DNA from: a virus
IMG/VR virus record: IMGVR_UViG_3300037193_002544
Location: 1 to 20,320 of that record
Direction: 5' to 3' (one strand)
Length of the DNA: 20,320 nucleotides
The notes under the pieces were generated by a model. The model worked only from the letters and a program-made list of their open reading frames with translations. It was not told where the DNA came from and searched no databases. Below are positions 3,148 through 19,330 of the stretch, in pieces (position 1 is the stretch's first letter; every line of letters begins with the position of its first letter). The translations under genes and the position numbers were made by a program.

Positions 3148-3155
3148 GTTTACAC
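3148..3155 (+). promoter_or_regulatory. GTTTACAC site 1 (intergenic)
   Basis: CGTTTACACG lies between the terminator at 3100-3134 and ATG 3169, in the sense orientation. It is well placed to control transcription into the genes from 3169 to 4788. Putative repressor/stoperator site. Confidence 0.6.
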
Positions 3156-3168
3156 GACCAGGAGCATC

Positions 3169-3813
3169 ATGACCACCGACAACGAAGAGACCCCCAGCCT
3201 GTACTCCGCCCGTCGCCAACTGGAGGACATGCGGTATCGCTACGGCAAGTCCCGCCCGGCCGCCACGACCCTGCTCCAGCAGTTCAGCCAGATCCTGGAC
3301 ATCGCCGAGGAGACCATGGCCCAGACGATCGAAGCCAAGGAGCGCGAGATCGACATCCGTTACCAGGGACGCCTGGAGCAGGCCACGGCGCAACAGCAGG
3401 CCGCCTGGGCCAGAGTCAACCAGGAGGTTGACAAGGTGGCCGAACTGCAGGAGATCCTCAGGGGCAAACGCTCCCTCCAGGAGGAGCGCGAGCGAGAGGG
3501 CGACGACGTCAAGGTCTCCATCGATCGCGGCGTTGGCGGCTGGACCGTGGCCGACATCGAGGAGATCGCCTATCGCCTTCGAGGCGGGGGCGCTGTCGAT
3601 GACACCCCGGTCCACCTCTCGACCACGCGCGTGGTCAGCCATGTCCCCGACCCGAACGTGGTCACCCTGGGGGGCGGCCAGGAGGTCGAGCGCCCGCACC
3701 CGGCCACGATGGTCGCCGAGGCAGGGCTGCCCTGGCGCAAGCGGGACACCCTCTTCATGGCGATGTTGGCGCTCGGGGCCCTCGTCGGAATCCTCGGATT
3801 GACGGTGTGGTGA
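3169..3813 (+). CDS. Coiled-coil protein with C-terminal membrane anchor
   Basis: ATG 3169 follows AGGAGC (3160-3165). The 214-residue product has a long charged helical region (about residues 10-115, rich in Glu/Gln/Arg, e.g. IEAKEREIDIRYQGRLEQA). A middle segment (residues 120-185) contains DRGVGGWTVADIEEIAYRL. It ends in one hydrophobic segment (about 194-214, TLFMAMLALGALVGILGLTVW) that reaches the last residue, preceded by WRKRD. This is a tail-anchored topology with the bulk in the cytoplasm. No family is recognised. The gene starts a sub-operon after a terminator and is coupled to the next gene. Confidence 0.65.
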   Translation: MTTDNEETPSLYSARRQLEDMRYRYGKSRPAATTLLQQFSQILDIAEETMAQTIEAKEREIDIRYQGRLEQATAQQQAAWARVNQEVDKVAELQEILRGKRSLQEEREREGDDVKVSIDRGVGGWTVADIEEIAYRLRGGGAVDDTPVHLSTTRVVSHVPDPNVVTLGGGQEVERPHPATMVAEAGLPWRKRDTLFMAMLALGALVGILGLTVW

Positions 3814-4145
3814 TGCCCTACCCACGCCACAGCGGAATCACTGTCATCCTCAGGGACCTGCCCAGCCGACGATGGGCCGCCGTCCGGGACGACCCGACCC
3901 CCGAGCGCGAGGCCCTCTGCGACTGGCTCGACTTCCACCGGATCCCGAGATGGATCCTGGACGGCGCCGAGATCATTCGGGACGAGGAGAACCATCGGAT
4001 CGTGATCAAGGGCTGGCTCTCGGAGGAGGACATCAGCACCGCGCTGATCCGGCCCGACGGCACGATCGTGTCCAACACGTACGTCGAGCAAGGGGAGGCT
4101 GGCCCGCTGCCGTTCCCGAAGGAGATCGAGTTCGCAGATGGCTAA
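3813..4145 (+). CDS. Hypothetical protein, 110 aa
   Basis: The start is ATG 3813 (TGATG coupling with the previous stop) or GTG 3810 in the same frame. The product is a small mixed alpha/beta protein with many charged residues (ALCDWLDFHRIPRWILDGAEI, IVIKGWLSEEDIS, LIRPDGTIVSNTYVEQ). I do not recognise it. It overlaps the start of the endonuclease VII gene by eight bases, so the two are probably translated together. Confidence 0.6.
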   Translation: MPYPRHSGITVILRDLPSRRWAAVRDDPTPEREALCDWLDFHRIPRWILDGAEIIRDEENHRIVIKGWLSEEDISTALIRPDGTIVSNTYVEQGEAGPLPFPKEIEFADG

Positions 4146-4788
4146 GGTCAGACCGTGTAAACACGCTGCGGAGGGCTGCCCCTATCCGGCCCACGAGAAG
4201 GTCCAGGACTGTGTCTGGCACTGGCTGTTGCGGCGCCCGGCGTACTCCGGCACCATCATGGCCGACCGGCGGCGCTCGAAGACCCCTGAGCACAAGTACC
4301 GGGCCCGGGTTCCGAAGTCCGAGTGGCCGGAGGGGGAGCGCTGGTGCGCGGGCTGCCAGTCATTCGTGCCGCTGTTCTATTGCCAGGGCTCGCGCTGCAA
4401 GGCGTGCGCCTCGGACGCCGCTCACGCCTCACAGGTCGAGAAGACCTACGAACTGACCGGTGAGGAGTATCGGGCCCTTCTGGAGCGCCAGGGAGGCGTG
4501 TGCGCCATCTGCAAGGGGCGGCCCCAGTCGAAGCGGCTCGCCGTCGACCACGACCACAAGACCGGCGAGGTCCGGGGGCTCCTGTGCTCTCGGTGCAACC
4601 ACGACGGCCTTGGAGCCTTCCATGACAGCGTTCTGCTGCTCTGGCGGGCGGTTGCCTACCTCTTGATGCCCCCGGCGCCGTACGGGCCCGAGGAGCGCAC
4701 CAGGGACGCCCTCCTGGAGCGGCTCGGGGAGGAACTCATGGCTGCCACGAAGGCGCCTCCGCCGACCGACGACCCGCCGCCGTTCTGA
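4138..4788 (+). CDS. Recombination endonuclease VII (HNH/ββα-metal type)
   Basis: 216 residues. The endonuclease VII core is clear: C122-x2-C125 (GGVCAICKGRP), the catalytic/metal segment LAVDHDHKTGEVRGLLC (D137-H138-D139-H140) and C150-x2-C153-N154 (SRCNHDGLGAF). The two cysteine pairs bind the structural zinc and the DHD/N residues form the active site. N-terminal to this are two more possible zinc sites (C7, C14, C25; and C70, C73, C82, C87, C90), so the protein is longer than the minimal domain. The enzyme resolves branched DNA before packaging. The C terminus reads PPPTDDPPPF, like the partner-binding tip of SSB proteins. A GTTTACAC site lies in codons 6-9 on the opposite strand. ATG 4258 is an alternative start that would drop the first zinc motif. 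Confidence 0.88.
   Translation: MAKVRPCKHAAEGCPYPAHEKVQDCVWHWLLRRPAYSGTIMADRRRSKTPEHKYRARVPKSEWPEGERWCAGCQSFVPLFYCQGSRCKACASDAAHASQVEKTYELTGEEYRALLERQGGVCAICKGRPQSKRLAVDHDHKTGEVRGLLCSRCNHDGLGAFHDSVLLLWRAVAYLLMPPAPYGPEERTRDALLERLGEELMAATKAPPPTDDPPPF
4155..4162 (-). promoter_or_regulatory. GTTTACAC site 2 (within endonuclease VII codons 6-9)
   Basis: Read on the minus strand as GTTTACAC followed by GGTC. On the plus strand it encodes part of P-C-K-H. It is near the 5' end of the gene, where a bound protein could block elongation. Confidence 0.55.
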
Positions 4789-4796
4789 GGCACCCA

Positions 4797-4839
4797 AAAG
4801 GCCCCCGCCAAAGACATACGAACTTAGGCGGGGGCCTTT
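4797..4839. terminator. Bidirectional terminator between converging operons
   Basis: AAAGGCCCCCGCC (4797-4809) pairs perfectly with GGCGGGGGCCTTT (4827-4839), a 13-bp stem with a 17-base loop. The A-run before and T-run after allow it to work in both directions. It lies nine bases after the plus-strand endonuclease VII stop and about 50 bases beyond the end of the minus-strand holin gene, exactly at the convergence point. Confidence 0.88.
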
Positions 4840-4877
4840 CAGTACCCAAGGTAGCGAACCGGTGGGATCACTACCGA

Positions 4878-4885
4878 GTGTAAGC
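4878..4885 (-). promoter_or_regulatory. Degenerate GTTTACAC-like site (one mismatch)
   Basis: GTGTAAGC on the plus strand (GCTTACAC on the minus strand) differs from the dispersed octamer by one base. It lies in the short gap between the terminator and the holin stop codon. It may be a decayed or weak site, or chance. Confidence 0.25.
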
Positions 4886-4889
4886 GAAC

Positions 4890-5177: not shown

Positions 5178-5190
5178 GACCACTATCGTA
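5178..5190 (-). promoter_or_regulatory. Leaderless-type promoter for the holin gene
   Basis: On the minus strand TACGAT (5190-5185) is followed by AGTGGTC (7 nt) and ATG 5177. No -35 hexamer or Shine-Dalgarno is visible. The palindrome CGCTAGCG (5191-5198) abuts the -10 box. Confidence 0.6.
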
Positions 5191-5192
5191 CG

Positions 5193-6030: not shown

Positions 6031-6034
6031 CAGT

Positions 6035-6042
6035 GTGTAAAC
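6035..6042 (-). promoter_or_regulatory. GTTTACAC site 3 (intergenic, upstream of lysis genes)
   Basis: The minus strand reads GGCCGTTTACACACTG. It is in the sense orientation, 33 bases upstream of the TATAGT box and just before the hairpin at 6001-6030. Placed to control entry into the lysis cassette. Confidence 0.6.
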
Positions 6043-6064: not shown

Positions 6065-6376
6065 CTAGACCGCGTCGATCCGGGCCTGGAGGAGGGAAAC
6101 CAGCCGCTCCGCGTCGGCCTCGGACAGGATCGGGGTGTCGGCGTCCTCCCCGTCATTCCCGGAGTAGAACTGACGCGGTGTCATGAACAGCGCCTCGTCC
6201 ACAAGGGCCACCGTGTCAGCGAGGTCCCGCTTCACCGAGAGGAGCGGCTCGAAAACGGTCCCGAGCGCCTGCTCCAGCCGGAGCCGTCGGTAATACTCCC
6301 TCTGGATGGCCTCGTTCTTGGCCATCTCAGCCTGGAGTTCTTCGTTGGTCAGTTGCGTGTAGTCTTCGTCTGCCAT
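6065..6376 (-). CDS. Hypothetical protein, 103 aa, helical
   Basis: The start is ATG 6376 (MADEDYTQLTNEELQAEMA), which sits seven bases after the TAGAGT box; the upstream GTG (6385) overlaps that box. The product is acidic and strongly helical, with likely coiled coil in residues 8-60 (ELQAEMAKNEAIQREYYRRL) and a second helix at the C terminus (SEADAERLVSLLQARIDAV). It lies between the large tail protein and the lysis genes. Actinophages often have a small unknown helical protein here. It could be a tail-fibre chaperone, but nothing in the sequence proves it. Confidence 0.65.
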   Translation of the reverse strand: MADEDYTQLTNEELQAEMAKNEAIQREYYRRLRLEQALGTVFEPLLSVKRDLADTVALVDEALFMTPRQFYSGNDGEDADTPILSEADAERLVSLLQARIDAV

Positions 6377-6389
6377 GGCGACCACTCTA
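6377..6389 (-). promoter_or_regulatory. Leaderless-type promoter for the 103-aa gene
   Basis: TAGAGT (6389-6384) then GGTCGCC (7 nt) then ATG 6376. The conserved AGTGGTC heptamer is present at 6386-6380. No Shine-Dalgarno. The box starts six bases after the stop of the upstream tail gene. Confidence 0.55.
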
Positions 6390-6394
6390 TCGGG

Positions 6395-9300
6395 TTAGGG
6401 CACATAGGAGCCGCCGATGCTCATGGAAAGTCCGGCCACCGTGGACGTGAATGCGTTCCCGCTGAGCACGCCAGCCGAGGTGACGAAGATTCGACCTGCG
6501 TACTGGTTTGCCCCGCTGCCGATGGTGGCCGCCCAGATGGCATTGGACTGAGTGGGGCGAAGCGCCGTCGGCAGCGCCGCCGCGATAGAATCTGTACTGG
6601 TGGTCCAGGCGGCACTCTTGGTGACGCGCCCCCTCAGATAGACCACGCCATCCTTCAGGCAATACTGCGGAGTTTCCCCGGAGACACCGCTGAACCCAGA
6701 CCCGCCATTCAGGCTGAAGTTCGTCCACGGGACGTCGTCGAGGTTGGTTCCCGCCAGCCTGTAGGAGCCGTCTCCCTTGAACTGGAGAAGAGGTCCGCTC
6801 CCGTCCGAGGCCGAAGAGATGATCCGCCCCGCCCCAGCGCCGGGGAAGTTGTTGGTTGCCGGGGGGTTGGTCCCGGAGACGACGAGCCCGTTGGCCGGGA
6901 TGATGTAGGTCGTCGTGCCGGAGGCGTTACCGCCCTGGGCCTGGAGGAACATCGACGTACGCCCGGCCGGGAGCGCCAGAGACGCCCCCTTGAAGGCGTA
7001 GAAGCGCCAGCGGTCGGGGTCATCACTGCCCCCAGCGTCCGGCACGCGGGGGAGGGTCGCTCGGATGCCCGAGATCCTCTTCTTCAGGGTGATCGACGCC
7101 AGGGAGGTCAGGTCAGTCTCGTGCGTGCCCGTGCCTCCGGCGTCAGAGTCAAACCAGGTGATCCCGCCATACAACTTGTGATCCGTCTGGGGCCAGGTCC
7201 AGTCGGAGAAGCGGGTCAACTTGCCCGCCGTGTCGATCTGCCAGAAGTGGTCGTCGTCATGACAGAAGCCGACCGGGGAACTCGGGAGCGACCAGCGCTC
7301 GGTCGGGTCCAGGGCGCCACCGGAGCCAGCGGCGAACGTGTAGACGTCGGCGGCCGTGGTGTTCCTGGCCGCCGTGTAGATGTCGGCGCCGACGATCGCG
7401 ACACCAGCCAGGCCGGACTGCCACGAGGAGCGCGAGGTGCCCGTGCCGCCGACCGTGGTGTCTTCCAGCGTCATGGTGCCACTGGGCGTTGTGGTGGGCG
7501 CCAGGCGCTTGTAGACGTTCCGGCCCGAGCCGTCGATGTGAGGGTAGAAGACGTAGAGGCGACTGTTGGCGTTGTTCCAGTAATACTGGGGGTGCACGTC
7601 GGAGGGGACAACGCCGTCGGGGATCCGGTTCAGGATGGTCGAGGCTCCATTGGAGACGTACGCCCAGAAGTTGCCGCCGAACTGACCGGCGAGGAGGTTC
7701 GCGTTCGAGTGTGACCCGGCGTCGTAGATCGGAGTCGCCCACTCGAAGCCCTCCAGGAACGAGACCCAGGGGAGCGTGCCATCGGTCCGCATCCGCCAGA
7801 TGGCGATGCCGCCGCCACGGTTCTCCGTGATGAAGAACTGGCCCCAGTGGCCGTTCCAGACCATGCCGGTGATCTGAGAGGGGTTCAGCGTCGGCCGCGA
7901 GGAGAAGCCGGTCCACGTCTCGGGGACGCGCTGCATGGTGTACTGCTCGTACTCCTGCGTCAGCGTCAGGCCGCCGACGGGCGACTTGACGCCGTCGGAG
8001 AGGGTCACCGTGGCGTCCTTGGCGACCTCAGACTGACCCTCCAGCGAGGCTCCGCCGAAGACCCGAAGCCAGTCGGCCTCGATGCCACCTCGGAACAGCG
8101 GGGTCTCGTTCTCGTCCGTCGGGATCGAGATCTGGACCTGTCCCTGGGCGTTGACCATCCGGATGCCAGAGGAGTCGATCTCGACTCGCCGGGCCGCCAT
8201 GGAGCCGTAGTTGTAGTTGATCGTGTTCAGCGTGTAGAGCCGCAGGCCATGCAGGCCCGGCACCTGGTTGGTGCTGGCCGCGATGTTGCCCGAGGGCCCG
8301 TTGGAGTATTCGGCCCAGAAGACCACCTTGGCGGCTCCGGTCGGCGGCACCAACTGGATGTTCCAGTAGTTCTCCGTCAGATTGGTGATCCCCTGGGCGG
8401 CCAGCGCGGCCACGTCGAAGTCGATGAGCGCCTGGTTGGAGATCAGTACGTTGGCGCCGTCGTACCAGGACGCCGTGAAGGACACGTCGTCGAGCCCGTC
8501 AGCGGCCTGGGTCAGTCCGGCCAGGCCGACGTTGACGAAGAGGCTCTCCAGCGGCCCCAGCGTGGGGACGATCTGCACCGGAGCGACGATGCGAGCCCGC
8601 AGCCCCAGGCCGGATCCGCCCGACTGGGTGGTGATGCGTACGCCGCGCGCCTGCTGGAAGGACTGAGCCTGGCCGGGGATGGCGTAGCGGCCCGGGGTGC
8701 TGAACTTCGAGGGCCCGAAGGCGCCGCCGGACGAAGAGGTCGTGTAAACGCTGGGCGTCCGGACGATGCTGCTGGTCGTGCCGCTCCAGACCGCGCTGGC
8801 CTGCCACACTGCCGAGGTCGGGCTCGGGGAGACGTCGGCCGCCGCGACGGATGCGGGCACCACCGGGTCGGCCCCACCCACCGTAGTGGACTCGACCTTG
8901 CGGAGTTCGGGGAAGACGATCTGGAACCCGCCAGCGTTGGCGAGCATGTGGTTGGCGTTGATCTCCAACTTGATGTAGAGCGTCGTCTGGCCGGTGCCGG
9001 TCCGGATGATCCCCCGGTCGAACTTGGTCAGGTCGGGACGAGGGGTGTCGTCCTTGACAAAGGTCTTCCAGGAGAAGACCTCGGGCGACTGGTAGGAGTC
9101 GTCGGTCGAGACGAACCACTTCACCGAGTTCAGGATGGCGTTGTTGGCGCCTGCGAGCGGCATGTTGGGGTCCATGCCCGGCATCGAGGAGTTCATCTCG
9201 AAGCGGTACTCCGTCAGCGGTTCGACCGTGACGCGAGTGCGAAGGGAGACCTGGCTGGCGGATCCCGTCAGTGCAGCGGTTCGATCCAAGCGTAGAGACT

Positions 9301-10549
9301 GAAGTGATCCGACCGCCATCCGCTGCCAGTAGGGGTCGTCATTCGGCGGCGAGAACTGCTCTGCCACCTTGGACCAACCGGCCGCCGTGCCGTTCGTGTT
9401 CCAGAGCCCTTCGACCGTGGTGACGTCGGTCGACAACTTGTCGGCGGCGAAGGTAGGCAGGAGGTTCGGGTTCAGCGAGGCCGGGTCGAGGCCGTTGTTG
9501 TCCAGGGTGCCCAGGAGCATCTCCGAGGCGAGGATCAGCCGCGCGGCCAACTTGTCAGCGTCGACCGCACCGGCCTGCAACTGACCCACACCCACCGAGT
9601 CGGCCTGCATGTGCCGCGTCGTGATGGCGTCGGTGGCGATGTCGGGGGAGTTGATCTCGACCGACTGCGCGATGGCGGGCATGGAGTCCGGGCCCTGGCC
9701 GTCGGCGTCGTAGGCCACGACCACGCCGTAGAAGTCGACACCGGGGGTGACGGCGCGCTCGATCTCCGGGCCGCCGGGGTCGTCAGGATTCTCTCCGAGG
9801 GCCTCGCGTACGACGGCCTGGGAGATGTTCCCGGCCGCCACCAGGTAGGTGTCGTCGGTCGTCGTGGGGACGTCGCCCGCGCGTACGTAGAGGGCGTACT
9901 CCGTCGGGTCGGCATTGGCGACCTGGGTCCAGCGATAGAAGACAGAGCCGATGCCGCCGGTCCAGGCGATGGTCGGCGCCGCGCTCGGAGGGAAGCCGTC
10001 GGGGGCCGAGCCGGTGTCGATGAGGCTCACTGTGCCGAGGGCGGGCTCCGAGGGGACCGAGAACTTCCCGGACTGGCTCCAGGAGACCAGGATCGCGATG
10101 TAGTCGCCCGGCTCCAGGACCGGAGACACCTCGCCACCGCGCGCGGTCTCGAAGGAGCCGTAGATCTGGGTCTGGTCGAGCGGCGTGAATGTCTCGGGGT
10201 CGTACTCAGCCTCCGGGACGATGTGCACGGTGACGCGGGCCCAGTCCATCGGGCTGAAGACGCCACCCTCGAAGGTGCCGTCCCAGTAGACCCGCAGGGC
10301 GCCCGGCGCCGAGGTGGTCAGCGCCTGGGTGGGAGTCGGGGGCGTCGGGCCGGTGATCGAGGCAGCAGTGTTGGTGCCGTCGAACTGCTCGCCCATCACC
10401 ATCGTCAGGGTCTCGTCGACCCCGTTGGTGGCCTGGATGGCGCCGCCGTCGAGGGTGGAGAAGCCCAGGTTCGGCTGCTTGGTCTGACGGACGTTGTACT
10501 CAAGGTTCTTGAGGCGTCGAGCAAGCGCCATCAGGGCGGGATCCGTCAT
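6395..10549 (-). CDS. Large minor tail protein / tail fibre, probable host-receptor contact
   Basis: 1384 residues from ATG 10549 (MTDPALMALARRLKNLEYN); GTG 10555 is an in-frame alternative but overlaps the -10 box. Residues 1-300 include beta-sandwich, FN3-like stretches (ALRVYWDGTFEGG). About 300-345 is a linker of a type common in siphovirus tail proteins (SPDIATDAITTRHMQADSVG). The middle is beta-rich with an SSGIRMVNAQGQVQISIP segment. About 875-1150 has repeated Trp/Gly/Asp-rich strands that could form a propeller. The last 100 residues (GETPQYCLKDGVVYLRGRVT..., ending GGSYVP) look like a fibre tip domain. Size and position after the tape measure and hub genes support a baseplate fibre. 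Codons near residue 602 contain a GTTTACAC site. Confidence 0.82.
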   Translation of the reverse strand: MTDPALMALARRLKNLEYNVRQTKQPNLGFSTLDGGAIQATNGVDETLTMVMGEQFDGTNTAASITGPTPPTPTQALTTSAPGALRVYWDGTFEGGVFSPMDWARVTVHIVPEAEYDPETFTPLDQTQIYGSFETARGGEVSPVLEPGDYIAILVSWSQSGKFSVPSEPALGTVSLIDTGSAPDGFPPSAAPTIAWTGGIGSVFYRWTQVANADPTEYALYVRAGDVPTTTDDTYLVAAGNISQAVVREALGENPDDPGGPEIERAVTPGVDFYGVVVAYDADGQGPDSMPAIAQSVEINSPDIATDAITTRHMQADSVGVGQLQAGAVDADKLAARLILASEMLLGTLDNNGLDPASLNPNLLPTFAADKLSTDVTTVEGLWNTNGTAAGWSKVAEQFSPPNDDPYWQRMAVGSLQSLRLDRTAALTGSASQVSLRTRVTVEPLTEYRFEMNSSMPGMDPNMPLAGANNAILNSVKWFVSTDDSYQSPEVFSWKTFVKDDTPRPDLTKFDRGIIRTGTGQTTLYIKLEINANHMLANAGGFQIVFPELRKVESTTVGGADPVVPASVAAADVSPSPTSAVWQASAVWSGTTSSIVRTPSVYTTSSSGGAFGPSKFSTPGRYAIPGQAQSFQQARGVRITTQSGGSGLGLRARIVAPVQIVPTLGPLESLFVNVGLAGLTQAADGLDDVSFTASWYDGANVLISNQALIDFDVAALAAQGITNLTENYWNIQLVPPTGAAKVVFWAEYSNGPSGNIAASTNQVPGLHGLRLYTLNTINYNYGSMAARRVEIDSSGIRMVNAQGQVQISIPTDENETPLFRGGIEADWLRVFGGASLEGQSEVAKDATVTLSDGVKSPVGGLTLTQEYEQYTMQRVPETWTGFSSRPTLNPSQITGMVWNGHWGQFFITENRGGGIAIWRMRTDGTLPWVSFLEGFEWATPIYDAGSHSNANLLAGQFGGNFWAYVSNGASTILNRIPDGVVPSDVHPQYYWNNANSRLYVFYPHIDGSGRNVYKRLAPTTTPSGTMTLEDTTVGGTGTSRSSWQSGLAGVAIVGADIYTAARNTTAADVYTFAAGSGGALDPTERWSLPSSPVGFCHDDDHFWQIDTAGKLTRFSDWTWPQTDHKLYGGITWFDSDAGGTGTHETDLTSLASITLKKRISGIRATLPRVPDAGGSDDPDRWRFYAFKGASLALPAGRTSMFLQAQGGNASGTTTYIIPANGLVVSGTNPPATNNFPGAGAGRIISSASDGSGPLLQFKGDGSYRLAGTNLDDVPWTNFSLNGGSGFSGVSGETPQYCLKDGVVYLRGRVTKSAAWTTSTDSIAAALPTALRPTQSNAIWAATIGSGANQYAGRIFVTSAGVLSGNAFTSTVAGLSMSIGGSYVP
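8742..8749 (-). promoter_or_regulatory. GTTTACAC site 4 (inside the large tail protein gene)
   Basis: The minus strand reads AGCGTTTACACGACC, in the sense orientation, encoding S-V-Y-T-T. It is nearly 2 kb from the nearest gene boundary, so it cannot be an ordinary promoter operator; it fits a roadblock (stoperator) role. Confidence 0.55.
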
Positions 10550-10562
10550 AGCCACTATCCTA
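10550..10562 (-). promoter_or_regulatory. Leaderless-type promoter for the large tail protein
   Basis: TAGGAT (10562-10557) then AGTGGCT (7 nt) then ATG 10549. A TG one base before the -10 box (TGATAGGAT) makes an extended -10. AGGA could also act as a weak Shine-Dalgarno here. Confidence 0.6.
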
Positions 10563-10570: not shown

Positions 10571-11716
10571 TCAGGACACCAACTTGTCGGAGCGGGCCAC
10601 GGTGTAGCGCGCGACCTTGCCGCTGGCGGGCTCGTAGCCGATGGACAGAATCCGAGCCGTCACGCCGACGTCGCCCCAGTCCGTCCGGCCGCCGACGAAG
10701 ATGGTGTCGCCGACCTGGGCCGCCCCGAGTCGCGCGTTCTCGTGGTCGACCACGGTGAACTCACGGATGTCGGTGAGGTTGCGGCGCCACTGGGCTTCCT
10801 GCTTGGCCCGAGCGTCAGCGCGAGTCCGAGACTTGATGGCGTCGTCCTGCACGATGGCGATCCGGCGCAGGGGGTCGCCGTTTACACGGCCTGGCTCGTG
10901 GATGGACTTGATGCCCGAGGCGCCCTCTCCGGCACCGAGCACCATCACGCCCGTGGCGAACTCCTCGCCGCTGCGGTTGATCTGGGGCACCTGGTGGATG
11001 TTGACCCCGATGGTGAAGCGCAGGTCGTCTCGGACGCGGCCGATCTTGGGGTGCTTGAAGTCGATGACGTGCCCGATGGTGCCGTCTGGCTTCCAGAAGT
11101 GGCGCTCTCGGTAGTCGAAGGAGTTCTCGTTGGCCAGTTCGTCGATCTTGCCCGCGAGGTCGAAGGTGGAGTACCAGTTCAACTTCACCGGGCCGCTCTC
11201 GAAGGAGACGGGCCCCGACTGCGTGTCGAACTCGACCTGCTCCAACTTGGTGCCGATCTTGATGGGCGTGCTCCATGCCGGGATGGTCACCCCGAGGTTG
11301 CCCCCGCGCTGGCTCTGCGCATGGTTCCAGATCACGCCAACGACGGCGGCCGGGTCCACCTGGATCCCGGCGTACCCCGAGCCGGTGTAGGGCAGGTCGC
11401 GCAGGTAGCCGGTGAAGCCAGTGAACTGGAGTGCCCACTCGGCGCCGCTGAAGTTGCCTCCGGTCAGGATCCCGCCTGCGCGAATCTCCCCGTCCGACTC
11501 GGCGTAGAGCGCCGTGGACCACTCGCGGAAGAGGGGCTGGCCATTGGAGGCCCGGACGCGATCGACGGCCGGGGAGATGGTCCCGCTGATGGAGTCGTCG
11601 CCGGAGAGGATCTCCTCGATCTGAACGTTCTCCAAAGGGACGTCGGGGTCGAGAAGCGTCTCGGTGCCGTCGCCGTTGAGCCGCGTGGCGAGGTAGCGCC
11701 AGCCGCGCCGCCTCAC
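10571..11716 (-). CDS. Minor tail protein, Gp37-like hub component
   Basis: The start is GTG 11716 (MRRRGWRYLATRLNGDG), with GAGGA about eight bases upstream and only two bases after the previous stop; 381 residues. The N-terminal half carries VQIEEILSGDDSISGTIS and ALYAESDGEIRAGGILTG, typical of siphovirus hub/baseplate proteins. The C-terminal half has RRIAIVQDDAIKSRTRADARA and GDTIFVGGRTDWGDVGVTARIL. The pattern resembles the 'Siphovirus ReqiPepy6 Gp37-like' family by memory. It would sit at the tail tip between the distal tail protein and the fibres. A GTTTACAC site is in codons for GRVNG. Confidence 0.72.
   Translation of the reverse strand: MRRRGWRYLATRLNGDGTETLLDPDVPLENVQIEEILSGDDSISGTISPAVDRVRASNGQPLFREWSTALYAESDGEIRAGGILTGGNFSGAEWALQFTGFTGYLRDLPYTGSGYAGIQVDPAAVVGVIWNHAQSQRGGNLGVTIPAWSTPIKIGTKLEQVEFDTQSGPVSFESGPVKLNWYSTFDLAGKIDELANENSFDYRERHFWKPDGTIGHVIDFKHPKIGRVRDDLRFTIGVNIHQVPQINRSGEEFATGVMVLGAGEGASGIKSIHEPGRVNGDPLRRIAIVQDDAIKSRTRADARAKQEAQWRRNLTDIREFTVVDHENARLGAAQVGDTIFVGGRTDWGDVGVTARILSIGYEPASGKVARYTVARSDKLVS
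10880..10887 (+). promoter_or_regulatory. GTTTACAC site 5 (inside the Gp37-like gene)
   Basis: GCCGTTTACACGGC, a perfect inverted repeat (GCCGT/ACGGC) around TTAC. Antisense to the gene; coding strand CGT GTA AAC encodes R-V-N within GRVNG. Confidence 0.6.
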
Positions 11717-11718: not shown

Positions 11719-12726
11719 TCAGTCCTCGAAGAAGCGTACGTCGATGACGACCTGGGAGCCGGAGTCAAGCCGGATCCGCTGGTCAGTCGTCGGGGAGGCG
11801 GGAGAGGTCTGTCGCCCCTCGATCAAGAGGGTCACGTTGGTGCCAGCCACCGAGGTGACGTCGAACTCTCCGGCGGCCTCCAGGTTCATCCGCATGGGCC
11901 CGGCGACGTTGGCGGTGTTCCAACTGACATCCGGCCCGAGCACGGCTCCCAACTGGAAGCGCAGGTTGCCAGCGGTGGAGGTGTGAGCGTTGACGATCGT
12001 CGCGCCGTTTACACGGCCTGAGACCACGGCCCGCTTGGCCCAGATCGGAACGTCGACATTGGGGAAGTAGCCGCCGCCGGAGTCGCCGGACCAGTTTCCG
12101 TACGATCCGCCGGACGCCATGTAGCGCACCGTCGGGGTGTAGGCCGACCCGGGGGAGGCGAACATGCGCTGGTACTGCCGGGGGTTGGCCAACTTGCGCA
12201 GGTCCGTGATCATCGCGTTGGTGATCGTGGTCGTGCTGGCCGGAACGTTGATGCGCGCCAGGGCGTAGTAGGGGTAGGTGGCCCCAGGGATGCTGGTCGC
12301 GCCAGCACTCACCTCGATCAGGGTGGGGCGCACATACTCGAAGGTTGTCTCCTCGCCCGACGGCGGATCGGAGGCCAGCATCCAGGGGTGGCCGGTCTGA
12401 GCGAACTCAGGGTCGCCGATCACCACGGCCAGGATATACGCCTTCGCCGACGGATTCGAGGCTGGCATCTGGCCGGACGGGATGATGTGCACCGTGGGGT
12501 TCGAGGCGATGTAGGACTCGTTGATCGTCGACTGGTAGCGGTTCAGCACGCTGGCCACTCCGGGCGCGATCTGCACGCCGACGCCAGGGGTCGACAACTG
12601 GGTGACCTTCAGGTCGTCCTTGAGGACGACTCCCTCGCCGCCGCCGTTGGCGTACGCTTCCCGGCGAGCAAGGGCCGAGGTGCTCAGCGCGCCGTCGATG
12701 GCCCAGGCGGACTTTTCAAAGGTCAT
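11719..12726 (-). CDS. Minor tail protein
   Basis: 335 residues from ATG 12726 (MTFEKSAWAIDGALSTSALA). The N-terminal third follows a pattern common in actinophage minor tail proteins: ARREAYANGGGEGVVLKDDLKV, then PGVGVQIAPGVASVLNRY, then a SYIASNPTVH segment. The C-terminal part is beta-rich (NLRFQLGAVLGPDVSWNTAN) and ends IDVRFFED. It lies between the distal tail protein and the Gp37-like hub gene, so a baseplate position is likely. A GTTTACAC site lies in codons for GRVNG, the same peptide as in the neighbouring gene although the proteins are otherwise unlike there. Confidence 0.75.
   Translation of the reverse strand: MTFEKSAWAIDGALSTSALARREAYANGGGEGVVLKDDLKVTQLSTPGVGVQIAPGVASVLNRYQSTINESYIASNPTVHIIPSGQMPASNPSAKAYILAVVIGDPEFAQTGHPWMLASDPPSGEETTFEYVRPTLIEVSAGATSIPGATYPYYALARINVPASTTTITNAMITDLRKLANPRQYQRMFASPGSAYTPTVRYMASGGSYGNWSGDSGGGYFPNVDVPIWAKRAVVSGRVNGATIVNAHTSTAGNLRFQLGAVLGPDVSWNTANVAGPMRMNLEAAGEFDVTSVAGTNVTLLIEGRQTSPASPTTDQRIRLDSGSQVVIDVRFFED
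12007..12014 (+). promoter_or_regulatory. GTTTACAC site 6 (inside a minor tail gene)
   Basis: GCCGTTTACACGGC again with the perfect GCCGT/ACGGC repeat. Antisense to the gene; encodes R-V-N within GRVNG. Confidence 0.6.
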
Positions 12727-12744: not shown

Positions 12745-13650
12745 TCAGAGTCCGAGGTAGGTGTTGCGCCAGGACACGCTGGCGTACGCCCCGCCGCCGG
12801 TAGCGATCCCGCCCAGTCGAGCCTGAATCTGGGTCTTCGGGGCCAGCCAGATGTCCTCCAGCATGGTCGTCTTCGGGAGCCCCGCAACGGCGGATGCGCC
12901 GGACTGGTTGAGCACCGTGAGCATCCACGGCCGGGCGTCGATCTCGATCCATCCACCGTTGGGGATAGATCCAGCCCAGGACAGAGCCCAGTCGTCGGTC
13001 GTGATACTCGGGTTGGTCCAGGGCCCGTAGAAGCGAATCACGGGGTAGGCCCGTCGAGTGCCGCCCACATAGAAGGCCTGCTCGGTCTCGTCGGATGGCA
13101 GGGTGATCATCGGGAAGATGACCGGGAACTGGAAGCCTGAGGCGCCGGGCTCGGAGGCGAACGGGATGATCACCGTGGTGGCGAGGTCGTCGTAGGTGTT
13201 CGAGTCGGCCAACTCGAAGTCGTGGGTGACGGGGACGTAGCCGCCCAGGATCCGGTTGCTCGGCGGAGCGCTGAAGCGGCGCGGACGGCCGAAGACGCGC
13301 CGGTCCCGGCCGCCGACTCGGTACCGGAGCCCGGTCACAACGCCCGGCTGAAGCATGAGCGCCTCGGGAGCCCAGGCATCCTCGAACTCCTCCAGCGTCT
13401 CCAGGGCGCCCTCGACGTCGTCCCGGTTGATATGCGAGGCCCAGGTCCAGGTCTTGGCGCCCTTGATGTCGCGGCCGAAGCCTCGAACTCCTCGGCGACT
13501 GTTCTGAGAGGTCTGGGTCAGCCACTCGGCGTCGCCCGGGTCGAACCCCTCGCCGTCGACAGAGACGGTCTGCCCGATGCCGAAGACGAAGCCGTCGTTC
13601 GCCTCGGCACTCGGGAGGATCTCGAAGCAGTGCTCGCTCAGGATGCTCAC
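12745..13650 (-). CDS. Distal tail (Dit-like) protein
   Basis: The start is GTG 13650 (MSILSEHCFEILPSAEAND), which overlaps the tape measure stop as GTGA; 301 residues. The open frame continues far upstream only because it shadows the tape measure gene. The product is beta-rich (KTWTWASHINRDDVEGALE, PFASEPGASGFQFPVIFPM, GGWIEIDARPWMLTVLNQS). Immediately after the tape measure is the standard place for the distal tail protein, which joins the tail tube to the baseplate. Family assignment is by position and general pattern. Confidence 0.72.
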   Translation of the reverse strand: MSILSEHCFEILPSAEANDGFVFGIGQTVSVDGEGFDPGDAEWLTQTSQNSRRGVRGFGRDIKGAKTWTWASHINRDDVEGALETLEEFEDAWAPEALMLQPGVVTGLRYRVGGRDRRVFGRPRRFSAPPSNRILGGYVPVTHDFELADSNTYDDLATTVIIPFASEPGASGFQFPVIFPMITLPSDETEQAFYVGGTRRAYPVIRFYGPWTNPSITTDDWALSWAGSIPNGGWIEIDARPWMLTVLNQSGASAVAGLPKTTMLEDIWLAPKTQIQARLGGIATGGGAYASVSWRNTYLGL

Positions 13651-16600
13651 TGGCCGACCCCCGCGTACTTGCCGGACCGGCTCAACTTCTTGAAGGTGAA
13701 GTTGAGGTCGCCAGCCACGTCCTCGGAGGTCAGGTCCGAGCCCTCGAAGTGGGGCTCGTAATGGATGCCGCCGCCGCCAGCCTTCATCGCCTCGAACTGC
13801 GAGTCGGTGAAGATCCGCTCGGGCTTCCCGGTCAGGTTGACCACGGTGGTCAGTCCGGTCGGGAGCATGCCGCCGCTGTCGTACTGCATAGTGCCATTGT
13901 AGGGGAGCGAGGACCCCGGGCTGGCCGTGCTGTCCCCGGCCTCGTAGACCCCGCCGTCGGAGTACCAGTTGTTCCGGTTGTGGAACGCCAACGCCTTGGC
14001 GGGCGAGCCGTAGCGGTCCTTGATGTACTGCGCACCGGCCAGCGTCTGGTCGTAGACCGAGGCGCCCGACTTGATGCCGTACGCCGACCGGGTCGCAGCG
14101 AGGAACTGGAACAGGCCCTCTGCCGTCGAGGTCGGGTTCTTGGCGTTCGGGTTCCAGGAGGACTCCTTCTGGACCAGCGCCACCAGGGCGCTCCACTGGC
14201 TGCCGGAGGCCCAGGACCCGAAGCCACCCTCGCCGAGGGCCTTCCGGGCCTGCTCCTGGACGCTGCCGGTCGCCTTGCCGCCGAGGAGGCCCAGCAGGGT
14301 GCCGACCGGAGACAGGCTGGCCACGTCCGACATCCAGTCCGGGATGCGGTCCTTGAAGGTGTCGACGACGCCCTCGACCAGGGTGCCGGGCATCGCCTGG
14401 AGCACCTTGGCCATGGGGTTGCTGTACGCCTTCTTGAACTTGTCGAGCGAGTCCTCGTACCAGCCCTTGACCATCTTGACCGGACCGCCGAAGAACTCCG
14501 AGATCATCTTCGGGATGTTCCCGCCAGCCTCGGCCCACGGGGAAGCGGGGCCGTAGCCAGCCTTCATGGCGCCAGACAGGAGCGCCATGGCCTGGCCGTA
14601 GGTACCTCCGGGGAAGCCGAAGTGCAGGTGGGGCCCGGTGCTGTTGCCGGTGCTGCCGACGCGACCGAGGAACTGACCGGGCGCGACGCTCTGGCCAGCG
14701 CGGACGCCGATCGCGCTGGAGTGGCCGTAAACCAGGGTGCCGTACTTCGTCGCCTGGAAGACAGCGTCGCCGTAGCCCCGGCCCGAGCCGACGTAGACGA
14801 TCCGGCCGCCGACGGCAGCGTAGTAGGGCTTGCCGTAGTCATTCGGCGAGTTCAGGTCGACGCCATCGTGGCCGGAGTACGTCGAGGCGATGCCGCCGGG
14901 CAGCGGCCAGAAGACGCCGCCCTTGGCGAAGGCCTGGCCGCCCATCATGGCGCGGCGTACGGCGTTCGGTCCACCCATCCGGGCCAGCGCGTTCATCTGG
15001 TTGACCCAGTGCGGGCCCATCGCCTTGGTCCACTCGGGGCGCATGATCGCCTCGCCACCGGACAGGTGGAGGCGACCCGCCGTCGGGGAGTAGAAGTCGT
15101 GGACGTCGCGGCCCGGGGTGTAGCCGGGCAGGACGCCACCAGTGGCGAACCCGTCAGCCGTGCGGCGGTCATCAGCCCCCTTCTTCGCCTTCTTGGTGCT
15201 GAAGGGTGTGATCGTGGGGATGTTGATCTTCAGCCCGGCCGCCTTGGCCAGACCGTTGAAGCCCCGGATGAAGGCATTCAGGACCGAGATCCCGAGGTTC
15301 ACCTGGCCGGTGATCACCTTGCCGAAGCCCTGGAAGATCTGGCCCCAGCCACCGGCCTCGCCGCGCAGGACCTTCGTGAAGCCCTTGACGATGTCGGAGA
15401 ATCCGGAGAAGACCGGCTTGATGGTGTCGCGCCAGATGTCGCGGATCAGCAGACCGGCCGCCTTGAAGACGGAACCAATGGCCTGGAACTGGTCCTTCAG
15501 CCCGCCCTTGCGGCCCCAGATGGTAGACCAGGTCCTGCTCATCAACTGGAAGGTTGGGATGACCACCTTCAGGATCAGCCACGCGATCGCCTTGAACACG
15601 CCGACGATCGTCTTACCGATGGCGTCGAAGAGGACCGGCACGACCTCGCGCCCGAGCCACTCCAGGGCCGGGACGAGGTACTTGAAGACGAACGGCCCGA
15701 TGACCTCGTCCCACAGTTCCTTGATGGCGACGCCCAGTTCGCGGACCGGCTCCTGGATCGGCTTCCAGATCTTCTCCGAGAACTGCTCGCCGAGGAAGGA
15801 CATCAGAGCGCGGACCTTCTCGCGGAAGGTGTCCGAGTTGCTCCACAGGACGACGAAGGCGGCAGCCAGGGCCAGAACGACCCCGATGGCGATAGCGATG
15901 GGCCCGGTCAGCAGGGTGATGCCGGTCAGCAGGGCTCCGGCGCCGGAGACGATCTGGACGAAGCCGAAGACGGCCAGCAGGCCAGCCCCGATGGCCTGGA
16001 GGATGATCGGGTCGAGCCCGGCGAGGAAGTCCAGGAAGTTGCCAAGCCCCTCCAGGATCGCGAGCGAGATCGGCATCATGGCCTGGCCGAAGTGGAACAA
16101 GAAGGTGACGAGGTCGCCGAAGAAGTCGAGCACCTCCGGGCCGATCTTGGCGGCGTTGTCCAGGAAGTCGGTGATCGCCTTCTGGCCCTTCGTGGAGTTG
16201 GCCCACTCGGAGAAGGTATCCGCGAGATCGGCCAGCGCCGCCGAGAAGGCCAGCGTGAAGGGCAGGCTCGCGCGGAGGATCCCGGCGAGCGCCTCCAGGA
16301 ACGAGATGAAGGTGGAGTTCAGGTTGCCCTGGATCTCCGGCGCCAGGTTGGCGAAGGCGCCGAAGAACGCCTGCATCTCCGGGCCGTTTACACTCTCTGC
16401 GAGGTCGGTGAAGAAGGCGCCCATCACGCCCGCCATCGAGAGCATGAAGGCCCGGAAGCCGGGGCCGTTCTTCTCGATGATGTCGGTGAAGGCGGCCTGG
16501 ACGTCGGGGAGGAAGACCTCCTGAATCTCGTTGCGGAGGTCGCGGAAGTCACTCTTGACGCCCATCATGAAGACCGCGAAGTTGCGCCCAGCGTTGCTCA

Positions 16601-18569
16601 ACTTGCCCATGGCAATCTCGGTCGCCGTGGCGGTAGCCGAGACCTCGGCACTGGTCGAGGTCAGAGACTCCTGGGCGCGGCGAAGCGACTCGCGGGCCGA
16701 GGCGATCGAGCGAGCGTTGTCGGCGTTTACACGGGACTGATCCCGAAGCGCGTCGGCGACATCGCGGGCACCCTGCGCACGGGCCTCGTCGACGGCACGA
16801 GAAGCCTCGCCGAGGTCGGTGACGGCGTCGCGCTGTGCCTCGATCGCGTCGGTGAGGCGCTCCTGGGCGGACTTGACGACGTCGGAGCCCTCGACGCCCT
16901 CCTTGTCCCACTTCTTCTTCTCCTCGGCCAGTCGAGAGCCCTCCAGCCGGAGACGCTCCTGCTGGAGTTTGGCCTGCTCCCAGTTGATGCGAGCCTGCTC
17001 GACCTCGGCGTTAGTCGCGGAGCCGTCGGCGCGGGCGGCGTCGAAGGCCACCTTGGCGTCGAACTCGTTGAGGAGGCCCTCCTCCTGGGCCAACTTGTTG
17101 CCCCGGATCTGGAGTCCGAGGTCCTGGGCGTCGGCGCGGGCCTGCTTGCGGGCCTCCTGGAGGGCGACCTCGGCCTCGCGCACGGACCGAATCGAGTCGG
17201 CGTACGCCTCCTGGGCCTCGCGCTGGCGCTCAAGGGCGTCCTGGATGCTGTCGGCGGCCGACTCGCGGGCGTCGGCAACGCGCCGTGCTGCATCCTCGGC
17301 GGCCTGGGCGGCGCTGCGCTCGGCGTCGGCGAGGGCCTTGCGGGCGTCGGAGACGGCGTACGTCGCCTGCTTGATCGAGTCGCCCTGGGCCTTCATCTCC
17401 TTGCCGGAGGCGTCGGCCTGGTTCTGCATCGCCGTCATGGCATCGCCGAGGCCGGAGAAGCCGAACGCGAGCGCGGCGATGCCGGTGCTGGCCACGAGGC
17501 CCGAGGTGCCGAGTGCCAGGATGCCACCGGCTGCCGCCGAGGTGAGGGCGGGCATGACCGACAGGGTGCCGACGACGGCGATCAGGAACGGGTTGAAGAC
17601 GCGGAAGGAGTTGGCCGCCTGGAGCCCGTCCTGGTGCAGGCCCTTGAGGCCGCGACCAAGGAGTCCGGCCGCGCGGTGGGCCTTGCCGGTCTCCTGGACG
17701 AAGGAGCGCAGGCCGCGCTCGGCTGCCGAGACGTCGATGAGGTCGCGGGCGTTGATCCGCTTCGAGCGGCCGACTCGGCGGATGGTGTCGTAGAGCCGGT
17801 TGGCGGCCTTGGCGGCGTCGGCCTCGCTGATGTCGATCCCGACCCGCATGGTCGAGAGTCGCTCCATCTCGCGACGAGCACCCGCGAGCGCTCCGGAGGC
17901 GTCCTTGGAGATCGCCTCGGAGGCCTTCTTCATCTCCTTCTGGAAGGAGCGCGCGAACGTGCCAGCGGTACGCTCCCACTCCTTCTGGCGGACCTCTGCG
18001 ATCTCCTTCTCGGCCTTGATGGCCTCGGCCCGCATCCGGGCGTTGGCGGCCTCAGTCGTGGCGATGTGGCGATCGAGTGCGGCCTTGGCGGCCCGGGCCG
18101 AGGTGTCGGCTTCCGACTTGGTCTTCTCGATCTCCCGGGCCAACTTGTCGGCCTCGGCCCACTCCTTGCGGGTCTGCTTCTCGAAGAGGTCGGCGCGGTT
18201 CTTGGCGGCCTTGGCGTCGCCCTCCATCTGGTCGCGCAGGCGCTTCTGCTCGGCCTCACGGAGGGCGTTCTCGTCCTTGATCTGCTGAGCGTTGGCGTCG
18301 CGAGCCTGCTTCACCTTGGCATCGGCGATGCGCTTGGCGGCGGCGAGTTCTTCCTTCTCGGCCTTCGCGCGCTCGCGGGCGTTGATCTTCGAGATCTCGC
18401 CAGCGGTCAGTTCCGCCTGCTTGACGTGCTCGCGGCCGACGTCGGCGGCGTCCTTCTTGGCGCGGGCGTTGGCCTTCTCTGCCTCGCGAGCGATCTCGTT
18501 CTGGAAGTCCTTGAAGACCGGGACCACCGATACGAAGATGCTGCCGGTGGAGAAGCCCTCCGAAGCCAT
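13647..18569 (-). CDS. Tape measure protein with M23 peptidase and transglycosylase-like domains
   Basis: 1640 residues from ATG 18569, with GGAGGGG just upstream. Residues about 20-260 and 395-660 are long Ala/Glu/Arg/Lys coiled coils. Hydrophobic stretches lie at about 320-375 and 845-920. At about 1230-1325 is an M23 zinc endopeptidase: GHDGVDLNSP (H...D), a YGTLVYGHSSAIGVRAGQ segment and STGNSTGPHLHFG (HxH). At about 1465-1500, LVQKESSWNP...STAEGLFQF resembles a lytic transglycosylase with catalytic Glu in KESSW. The protein sets tail length and its C-terminal enzymes probably open peptidoglycan during infection. Using the usual 0.15 nm per residue the tail would be roughly 250 nm. Two GTTTACAC sites lie inside the gene. 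Confidence 0.93.
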   Translation of the reverse strand: MASEGFSTGSIFVSVVPVFKDFQNEIAREAEKANARAKKDAADVGREHVKQAELTAGEISKINARERAKAEKEELAAAKRIADAKVKQARDANAQQIKDENALREAEQKRLRDQMEGDAKAAKNRADLFEKQTRKEWAEADKLAREIEKTKSEADTSARAAKAALDRHIATTEAANARMRAEAIKAEKEIAEVRQKEWERTAGTFARSFQKEMKKASEAISKDASGALAGARREMERLSTMRVGIDISEADAAKAANRLYDTIRRVGRSKRINARDLIDVSAAERGLRSFVQETGKAHRAAGLLGRGLKGLHQDGLQAANSFRVFNPFLIAVVGTLSVMPALTSAAAGGILALGTSGLVASTGIAALAFGFSGLGDAMTAMQNQADASGKEMKAQGDSIKQATYAVSDARKALADAERSAAQAAEDAARRVADARESAADSIQDALERQREAQEAYADSIRSVREAEVALQEARKQARADAQDLGLQIRGNKLAQEEGLLNEFDAKVAFDAARADGSATNAEVEQARINWEQAKLQQERLRLEGSRLAEEKKKWDKEGVEGSDVVKSAQERLTDAIEAQRDAVTDLGEASRAVDEARAQGARDVADALRDQSRVNADNARSIASARESLRRAQESLTSTSAEVSATATATEIAMGKLSNAGRNFAVFMMGVKSDFRDLRNEIQEVFLPDVQAAFTDIIEKNGPGFRAFMLSMAGVMGAFFTDLAESVNGPEMQAFFGAFANLAPEIQGNLNSTFISFLEALAGILRASLPFTLAFSAALADLADTFSEWANSTKGQKAITDFLDNAAKIGPEVLDFFGDLVTFLFHFGQAMMPISLAILEGLGNFLDFLAGLDPIILQAIGAGLLAVFGFVQIVSGAGALLTGITLLTGPIAIAIGVVLALAAAFVVLWSNSDTFREKVRALMSFLGEQFSEKIWKPIQEPVRELGVAIKELWDEVIGPFVFKYLVPALEWLGREVVPVLFDAIGKTIVGVFKAIAWLILKVVIPTFQLMSRTWSTIWGRKGGLKDQFQAIGSVFKAAGLLIRDIWRDTIKPVFSGFSDIVKGFTKVLRGEAGGWGQIFQGFGKVITGQVNLGISVLNAFIRGFNGLAKAAGLKINIPTITPFSTKKAKKGADDRRTADGFATGGVLPGYTPGRDVHDFYSPTAGRLHLSGGEAIMRPEWTKAMGPHWVNQMNALARMGGPNAVRRAMMGGQAFAKGGVFWPLPGGIASTYSGHDGVDLNSPNDYGKPYYAAVGGRIVYVGSGRGYGDAVFQATKYGTLVYGHSSAIGVRAGQSVAPGQFLGRVGSTGNSTGPHLHFGFPGGTYGQAMALLSGAMKAGYGPASPWAEAGGNIPKMISEFFGGPVKMVKGWYEDSLDKFKKAYSNPMAKVLQAMPGTLVEGVVDTFKDRIPDWMSDVASLSPVGTLLGLLGGKATGSVQEQARKALGEGGFGSWASGSQWSALVALVQKESSWNPNAKNPTSTAEGLFQFLAATRSAYGIKSGASVYDQTLAGAQYIKDRYGSPAKALAFHNRNNWYSDGGVYEAGDSTASPGSSLPYNGTMQYDSGGMLPTGLTTVVNLTGKPERIFTDSQFEAMKAGGGGIHYEPHFEGSDLTSEDVAGDLNFTFKKLSRSGKYAGVGQ
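16386..16393 (+). promoter_or_regulatory. GTTTACAC site 7 (inside tape measure gene)
   Basis: GGCCGTTTACACTCTC; antisense; coding strand AGT GTA AAC encodes S-V-N in AESVNGPEM. Only 339 bases from site 8. Confidence 0.55.
16725..16732 (+). promoter_or_regulatory. GTTTACAC site 8 (inside tape measure gene)
   Basis: GGCGTTTACACGGGAC; antisense; coding strand CGT GTA AAC encodes R-V-N in QSRVNADN. Confidence 0.55.
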
Positions 18570-18581
18570 GTGCCCCTCCAG

Positions 18582-18589
18582 GTGTAAAC
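18582..18589 (-). promoter_or_regulatory. GTTTACAC site 9 (between tape measure promoter and gene)
   Basis: The minus strand reads GCGCGTTTACACCTGG, sense orientation, downstream of the putative -10 at 18610-18605 and just before the Shine-Dalgarno and ATG 18569. A classic position for repression of initiation or early elongation. Confidence 0.65.
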
Positions 18590-18597
18590 GCGCTGAC

Positions 18598-18610
18598 GAC
18601 CACTAGTCTA
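18598..18610 (-). promoter_or_regulatory. Promoter for the tape measure gene
   Basis: TAGACT (18610-18605) followed by AGTGGTC, with an extended -10 TG (TGATAGACT). The same box as in the leaderless set, but here a transcript starting seven bases downstream would have a leader of about 28 nt with a proper Shine-Dalgarno. It overlaps the stop codon region of the upstream chaperone gene. Confidence 0.5.
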
Positions 18611-19321
18611 TCAGCGGTTCGGCAGCATCCTGGCCACTAGTTTCTCGTGCTTCGCCTTGCGGTGCTCGAACTTCATCTTGTCCACCTGACGCTTCAGGTC
18701 GGACTGCGGGCGCGGCGCGAATACGGGCTCGGGGACCTTCCTCTCGGCGTGGATCGACGCCGTCAGGTGGGCGAGTTCCTTCAGCGCGTCGTGAATGTCG
18801 GTCAGTTTGGCAACCTCGGGAGACCAGGTGCTGAGCGCAGGGGAGGCCTCCGCCTTGCTCTCGCCGCTGAACTCCGCCTCGGCCAACTGCTTGGCGAGGA
18901 GCGCTACGTGCTCGGGATCTTCCGAGACAGCCTGGGCATACCAGGTGTGTGACGGCAGCCGATCGATATAGCCCAGGAGTCGACCCCATCGGCGGTGCAG
19001 CCAGAGTTCTTCCAGATCCACGCCAAGATGGTTCCGGAGGTCGTACTCCAGGGCCTCTTCGTAGTGGTCGACGACATAGGTCAGCCGAATGGCGGCGTTG
19101 ATCTCGGGCAGGTCGTACGCCGCGCGCCAGAGATTGTGGATCGTCTCGATCGAGTAGATGGAGATTTTCTTGTCGTGCAAGCCATCAAAGATGCGGTCTC
19201 GAAGGATCGCCAGAACCTCTTGGTAACCCATCAGACGCGGATCGGGCAGCACGACGTCTTCGAGCCAGGCCTCCTTGGTCAGGATCACCTTCTCGGCGCG
19301 CAGGTCGAAGTCATCGATCAT
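18611..19321 (-). CDS. Tail assembly chaperone, second (T-type) gene
   Basis: 236 residues from ATG 19321 (MIDDFDLRAEKVILTKEAW). The stretch RWGRLLGYIDRLPSHTWYAQAVSEDPEHVALLA matches the region of actinophage second chaperone frames that reads 'L..LID.LP..S....A...D'. The position directly upstream of the tape measure gene is also right. In most siphophages this part is made only as a fusion, by frameshifting from the gene before; here an in-frame TAA (19327-19325) lies two codons before the ATG, so it must start independently. GGAGG (19337-19333) is 11 bases from the ATG, longer than optimal. The TAA is part of GTTTACAC site 10. Confidence 0.75.
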   Translation of the reverse strand: MIDDFDLRAEKVILTKEAWLEDVVLPDPRLMGYQEVLAILRDRIFDGLHDKKISIYSIETIHNLWRAAYDLPEINAAIRLTYVVDHYEEALEYDLRNHLGVDLEELWLHRRWGRLLGYIDRLPSHTWYAQAVSEDPEHVALLAKQLAEAEFSGESKAEASPALSTWSPEVAKLTDIHDALKELAHLTASIHAERKVPEPVFAPRPQSDLKRQVDKMKFEHRKAKHEKLVARMLPNR

Positions 19322-19322
19322 C

Positions 19323-19330
19323 GTTTACAC
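19323..19330 (+). promoter_or_regulatory. GTTTACAC site 10 (one base before the second chaperone ATG)
   Basis: ATCGTTTACACGGCCTCC. Antisense to the gene; on the coding strand it reads GTGTAAAC between the Shine-Dalgarno and the ATG and supplies the in-frame TAA that isolates the second chaperone. Confidence 0.6.

Follow-up and report, generated by a model that had tools for sequence, protein, structure and literature searches.

A strict octamer dispersed through an actinophage fragment and its relatives, likely read by a SprT-like ribbon protein

Introduction

The IMG/VR virus record IMGVR_UViG_3300037193_002544 carries ten copies of a single octamer, GTTTACAC, dispersed between and within its genes, and raises the questions of what such sites do and which protein reads them. 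The window, that is, the whole stretch of DNA analyzed here, is the complete record of 20,320 bases (66.4% GC) and represents a fragment of an actinophage in which the early genes are not included. The initial annotation described the copies as dispersed, operator-like sites at which a dimeric helix-turn-helix protein would silence a prophage, by analogy with the stoperators of cluster A phages. Among cultured actinophages, the cluster AZ phage Powerpuff is a proven temperate phage and shows homoimmunity, yet no repressor could be identified in it (PMC8758107); phages of clusters AZ and EH give rise to immune lysogens, or are predicted to, and no repressor has been found for them (PMC8758107, PMC7302621).

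The comparisons reported below point to a dispersed-operator system, likely read by a SprT-like ribbon protein and not by a helix-turn-helix repressor. Because many unrelated viruses contain 10–40 copies of the octamer, which overlaps their promoters and goes with the SprT-like gene, it is probably the site of that protein.

Octamer excess in the window and in other phages

All ten reported copies are present in the window, six on the + strand and four on the − strand, and their reported orientation relative to transcription (four sense, six antisense) is likewise correct. Dinucleotide shuffles predict 0.08 copies, and none of 100 shuffles reached ten; under an order-2 Markov model, the source of the background expectations in the genome comparisons, the window should contain 0.012. 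Of all 8-mers in the window, GTTTACAC scores highest and is the most over-represented. Its one-mismatch variants occur about as often as expected (three observed, about three expected), and the core is thus strict. C precedes the octamer in nine of the ten copies and G follows it in seven. The conserved GCCGT and ACGGC flanks of the initial description did not survive this comparison: the flanks are weak, the longer GCC...GGC palindrome occurs in a few window copies only, and relatives do not share it as a consensus, their core being (C)GTTTACAC(G).

An artefact of repeated peptides or codon usage was considered and ruled out, as sites fall in several reading frames, outside genes, and on rare codons. 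GTA accounts for 19 of the window's 437 valine codons, and four of those 19 lie within sites; the genic site at position 4155 uses the rare codons TGT (Cys) and AAA (Lys). Selection acts on the octamer at the DNA level.

Scanning IMG/VR for GCCGTTTACACGGC returned mostly contigs with the seed match alone, and a few that were rich in the octamer. The richest records contain 36, 19, 13, 12, 11, and 9 copies over their whole length, against 0–1 for the reversed control; one of the IMG/VR contigs, G013, is related to the Zeta1847/Cen1621 group of Microbacterium phages. Gene calls on these metagenomic contigs relied on a simple codon model, and those for G001 are of low quality. The excess extends to complete genomes, a point on which the initial annotation was borne out: copies number 28 in Cen1621, 27 in Powerpuff, 22 in Zeta1847, 23 in Barnstormer, 20 each in Yang, SWEP2, and JasmineDragon, 17 in Maureen, 33 in Honk, 17 in Caron, 16 in GardenState, 13 in 4A, 41 in JackieB, and 26 in DrManhattan, and GTTTACAC is the top 8-mer in Powerpuff, Cen1621, Zeta1847, and JackieB. 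Altogether, about 20 genomes from several lineages show the excess. Phages phiMiGM15, SM23, Aoka, Dismas, and phiC31 contain zero copies, which also rules out identity with the phiC31 repressor sites.

The palindromic word GTTTAAAC replaces or joins GTTTACAC in G004, G005 (L136–L140), and low-GC loci among L238–L285, and one clade (L247, L248, L250, L252, L254, L256) carries ATTTAAAT-like words instead. When synonymous sites were tested, cluster AZ showed a weak excess (79% vs. 65%, p = 0.013) and EH showed none; since the sites turn over, it is not used as support.

Association with a SprT-like gene

We compared 57 protein families, each present in at least five of 15 AZ/EH-type genomes, across site-carrying genomes (carriers). 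Only the SprT-like protein (phrog_6361) is shared by the four carriers that are otherwise unrelated (G001, G004, G005, and G009), with profile matches at E values of 1e-44 to 1e-68. The gene is absent from the three non-carriers of this comparison, phiMiGM15, SM23, and Aoka. The first of these is a near relative and has 24 of the 26 families found in 14 or more of the 15 reference genomes, yet it lacks both SprT and sites. Sigma-like and helix-turn-helix proteins encoded beside SprT were also considered as readers and ruled out, as they do not follow the sites across carriers.

An independent test selected loci by SprT alone. IMG/VR was searched with a SprT alignment, and the 80 best loci (1.05 Mb) contained 298 copies of GTTTACAC (12.3 expected) and 231 of the palindromic GTTTAAAC (6.8 expected), while the reversed control occurred six times (19.5 expected). 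Similarly, 46 SprT loci of bacterial genomes, apparently prophages in many cases, held 49 copies of GTTTACAC (4.5 expected) and 80 of GTTTAAAC (2.5 expected), with seven of the reversed control (9.2 expected). Of 56 site-rich loci, 35 have a site in the 150 bp ahead of the SprT start, as compared with 6.1 expected, mostly at a distance of 20–50 nt; in Escherichia coli phage ep3, Burkholderia phage Mica, and Acinetobacter phage Alexa, GTTTAAAC stands 1–16 bp ahead of the gene. No SprT-like gene was found within the 20 kb fragment that forms the window, and the reader gene of this phage, which would lie outside the fragment, is for that reason a prediction.

The C-terminal ribbon

The SprT-like protein combines an HExxH putative zinc-metalloprotease domain with a small C-terminal ribbon, QxTRMxK...RxTxKW. 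His85, Glu86, and His89 are invariant in both alignments (A1 and A2). Matches to phrog_6361 are strong; against Pfam PF10263, the Cen1621 protein scores above the curated threshold (26.4 vs. 25.6 bits), and those of Powerpuff, G001, G004, and G005 fall below it. The AlphaFold model (mean predicted local distance difference test score, pLDDT, 89.8) matches zinc metallopeptidases only, and weakly.

Site excess accompanies 91 of 111 ribbon-bearing homologs and one of 12 without the ribbon, a comparison in which the search pattern itself favors ribbon-bearing homologs and the sampled homologs are related to each other. The single exception has a related ribbon, and many of the remaining ribbon-bearing homologs come from short contigs or belong to a clade whose variant is of the TTTAAA type. 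The ribbon also occurs alone: G003 encodes a stand-alone, ribbon-only protein of 50 residues (27040–27192; L135:7040–7192) just upstream of its full SprT gene, and phrog_34373, a family of 54 positions that matches the ribbon alone, looks like the same module. These stand-alone forms point to the ribbon as a separable module, and such a protein could compete for octamers.

Promoter overlap and integrase distribution

The promoters that the sites overlap are of a sigma70-like type. In Cen1621, the octamer occupies the 17-bp spacer of the promoter-like TTGCGY-N17-TANNNT in nine of 11 cases, and in Honk in 13 of 15. These octamers take either orientation in the same register and are often 6–7 nt ahead of the start codon, so that the transcripts would be leaderless. 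Within promoter-like elements of Zeta1847 the octamer is present in 11 of 12; it can cover the −10 in Zeta1847 and Barnstormer, and directly follows the −10 TAGACT in Powerpuff and DrManhattan. The non-carrier phiMiGM15 keeps such promoters without the octamer (0/3). Because the site may fall anywhere on the polymerase footprint, a repressor fits better than an activator or a sigma element. Intergenic DNA is enriched in sites about three- to eightfold in most carriers, and about half of the sites are genic.

Several further arrangements were observed. Two octamers of opposite orientation are kept 154 bp apart in the portal gene of six AZ-group genomes (Powerpuff, Yang, JasmineDragon, Maureen, SWEP2, and DrManhattan), at positions 2845 and 2999 in Powerpuff (L149). 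At gene ends in Cen1621 (L148), Barnstormer (L151), and JackieB (L351), GTGTAAAC-oriented sites often provide the TAA stop codon. An inverted repeat, GCGYAAG-N5-CTTRCGC, is found in intergenic DNA of Barnstormer, Caron, and phiMiGM15, where it starts at the −35 of some promoters; with one to three copies per genome it is too rare to explain the octamer, and is perhaps the operator of a second regulator.

Only some of the carriers yielded serine or tyrosine integrases. One bacterial genome can also hold two different prophage-like elements of the octamer/SprT type, as in L214 with L217 (UViG 2648501281_000002 and _000001) and L289 with L290 (Pseudarthrobacter siccitolerans 4J27), which would be odd if the octamer alone set immunity.

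Sites in the window

The window encodes an exonuclease and an endonuclease VII on the + strand and a tail and lysis block on the − strand. Its tail genes are nearest to those of Arthrobacter cluster AZ phages, and a search of IMG/VR with the tape measure and minor tail proteins returned no relatives. All ten sites belong to the late region; three are no more than 15 nt from a start codon, and no canonical promoter is evident there.

Four sites adjoin or separate genes. That at 3148–3155 (+) is intergenic, 13 nt before the ATG of the open reading frame (ORF) 3169–3813 (+) and beside a Shine-Dalgarno-like AGGAG. The site at 6035–6042 (−) falls between ORF 6065–6385 (−) and a membrane-protein ORF ending at 5497 (−), and that at 18582–18589 (−), also intergenic, precedes the tape measure start by 12 nt. 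At 19323–19330 (+), the octamer stands between the Shine-Dalgarno sequence (GGAGG) and the ATG of the tail assembly chaperone ORF 18611–19321 (−), whose coding strand reads GTGTAAAC.

The site at 4155–4162 (−) occupies the first codons (Cys-Lys-His) of the endonuclease VII ORF 4138–4788 (+), or its leader if the start is at 4258. Within the ORF of 1386 residues at 6395–10555 (−), the site at 8742–8749 (−) is sense and encodes Val-Tyr-Thr. The others are antisense and use GTA: 10880–10887 (+) and 12007–12014 (+), both at Arg-Val-Asn-Gly, in the minor tail protein ORFs 10571–11716 (−) and 11719–12726 (−), respectively; and 16386–16393 (+; Val-Asn-Gly) and 16725–16732 (+; Arg-Val-Asn) in the tape measure ORF 13647–18569 (−). 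The C-terminal part of the tape measure protein also contains peptidase- and transglycosylase-like regions, based on PHROG matches.

Discussion

Part of the initial annotation's operator interpretation stands, in that the octamer is dispersed, common to relatives, and overlaps promoters in annotated phages. The dimeric helix-turn-helix reader gives way to the sole gene that tracks the sites, which encodes the SprT-like ribbon protein, and silencing of a prophage is too narrow a role, given that JackieB, G001, and G020 carry the octamer with no integrase detected. On sequence comparisons, the explanation we favor, and consider reasonably probable as a whole, is that GTTTACAC and GTTTAAAC are sites of a SprT-like protein acting mainly as an autoregulated transcriptional repressor. 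The C-terminal ribbon would read the octamer; sites over the −35/−10 spacer, the −10, or the start point would block RNA polymerase; those spread evenly within operons could serve as roadblocks, stoperator-like and suited to the silencing of transcripts; and the site upstream of the SprT gene would provide autoregulation. In the integrase-bearing AZ/EH relatives, the protein may be the immunity repressor, and it is the best candidate for the one these clusters appear to lack; in phages without an integrase, it may time or limit early transcription.

Several observations weigh against this explanation. SWEP2 has 20 sites and no SprT-like gene; its neighboring genes are collinear with those of Maureen, and the SprT interval is missing. 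We assume a recent loss of the SprT locus with the octamers kept (L168–L170), comparable to cluster A phages that have lost their repressor. No integrase was detected in JackieB (41 copies), G001 (36), or G020 (35), and in JackieB neither an integrase nor a repressor is annotated within the 50 kb examined; the role is not simply lysogeny, and because such carriers exist the system is broader than prophage immunity. The SprT tree offers only three to five independent ribbon contrasts, none contrary and too few for significance, and with related samples and a search pattern biased toward the ribbon, the Fisher p of 5e-7 should not be read literally. Searches of the PDB with the SprT model, by fold and by sequence, recovered no DNA-binding fold or structure behind the ribbon. 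The lack of one-mismatch sites is unusual for a repressor. Finally, the sites are spaced more evenly than random placement would give (coefficient of variation about 0.5 vs. 0.95) in nine genomes of about five lineages (G001, G020, Cen1621, Powerpuff, Yang, SWEP2, G005, JackieB, and DrManhattan), which plain promoter repression does not require.

The main rival is a role in DNA architecture, in which octamers bound by the SprT-like protein would serve as reference points for handling DNA on the scale of the genome (in compaction, replication, repair, or packaging) and promoter overlaps would be secondary. Even spacing, sites on both strands through structural and early genes, and the octamer's presence in phages without an integrase all favor it, as does the activity of eukaryotic SprT proteins such as SPRTN on DNA–protein crosslinks (PMC5127644). 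However, it leaves the intergenic enrichment, the fixed register in promoters, and the autoregulatory site at the SprT gene unaccounted for, and carriers G004, G018, and G019 show no regular spacing. We regard it as possible and clearly less probable than repression.

A different arrangement would have another phage protein bind the octamer, with the SprT-like protease as its partner, for example cleaving a repressor to induce the phage. ImmA acts in this way on the ImmR repressor, and metalloproteases of other families act on repressors of mobile elements. The invariant HExxH agrees with such a role, and other DNA-binding proteins adjoin SprT in AZ/EH phages. However, not one of the 56 remaining families accompanies the sites in every unrelated carrier, and it is the ribbon, not the protease domain, that follows them and that exists as ribbon-only proteins. 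We consider this arrangement improbable.

Far less room remains for the octamer as a promoter element of a phage sigma factor, or as a Chi-like or host-specific word. Some sites do lie within promoters, and AZ/EH phages encode a sigma-like protein; however, position relative to the −10 differs between clades, either orientation is used, phiMiGM15 has the sigma-like family with zero sites, and the octamer goes with a phage gene in hosts that belong to several phyla. Membership in the cluster A system of L5-type repressor and asymmetric stoperators, the analogy drawn initially, shares dispersed, strict, intergenic and genic sites in integrase-bearing actinophages and is largely refuted, with next to no probability left to it, by the different sequence, the lack of a fixed orientation, and the occurrence in phages without an integrase and in proteobacterial phages; no L5-type repressor is among the site-tracking families of the 57-family comparison, although no search aimed at L5-repressor homologs was made.

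Repression by the SprT-like protein would supply both an operator and a candidate protein for the missing repressor of clusters AZ and EH, a question testable with existing isolates. If correct, it would assign a role to phrog_6361, so far a family without known function, whose members occur in phages that infect hosts ranging from Streptomyces to E. coli and Acinetobacter; dispersed-operator control would then be exerted by a protease-bearing protein that is not of the helix-turn-helix type. More tentatively, and with odds we would place somewhat short of even, sequence-specific DNA-binding SprT-like metalloproteases may form an unrecognized class of phage regulator, with an evenly placed, genome-wide octamer, lytic control in phages of Actinobacteria and Proteobacteria, immunity in AZ/EH, and perhaps self-cleavage as an induction switch.

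Comparison with known systems

A survey of the open-access literature on the octamer, GTTTAAAC, SprT with repressor, and clusters AZ and EH found nothing relevant beyond the statements on missing repressors. Short repeated motifs upstream of actinophage genes are known from the small repeats of Microbacterium clusters EC, EG, and EI and the start-associated sequences of cluster K/EF phages (PMC7302621); these differ in sequence, are intergenic, and have no linked gene proposed for them. The AZ/EH actinophages themselves (Powerpuff, Zeta1847) share with the window the same octamer (16–33 copies) and related tail genes, though few tail genes are held in common and gene order differs.

The stoperators of cluster A (L5) and of cluster CA Rhodococcus phages are likewise strict, short sites spread genome-wide, intergenic or overlapping gene ends, and are thought to silence transcription under one phage repressor; Rasputin has 25 putative stoperators (PMC13313380). 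The present sites differ in their 8-bp core, in their occurrence in phages without an integrase, and in being used in either orientation: the one-way orientation typical of cluster A is found neither in the window, with its four sense and six antisense copies, nor in the promoters of Honk.

The likeness of the predicted reader to SprT-like proteins and SPRTN (PF10263; phrog_6361) lies in the HExxH motif and a C-terminal, zinc-ribbon-like tail, with a weak Pfam match. No member of the SprT family was found described as a sequence-specific regulator in the open-access literature. In contrast to known SprT and SPRTN proteins, homologs bearing the QxTRMxK ribbon are accompanied by an octamer spread genome-wide and by a site at their own promoter.

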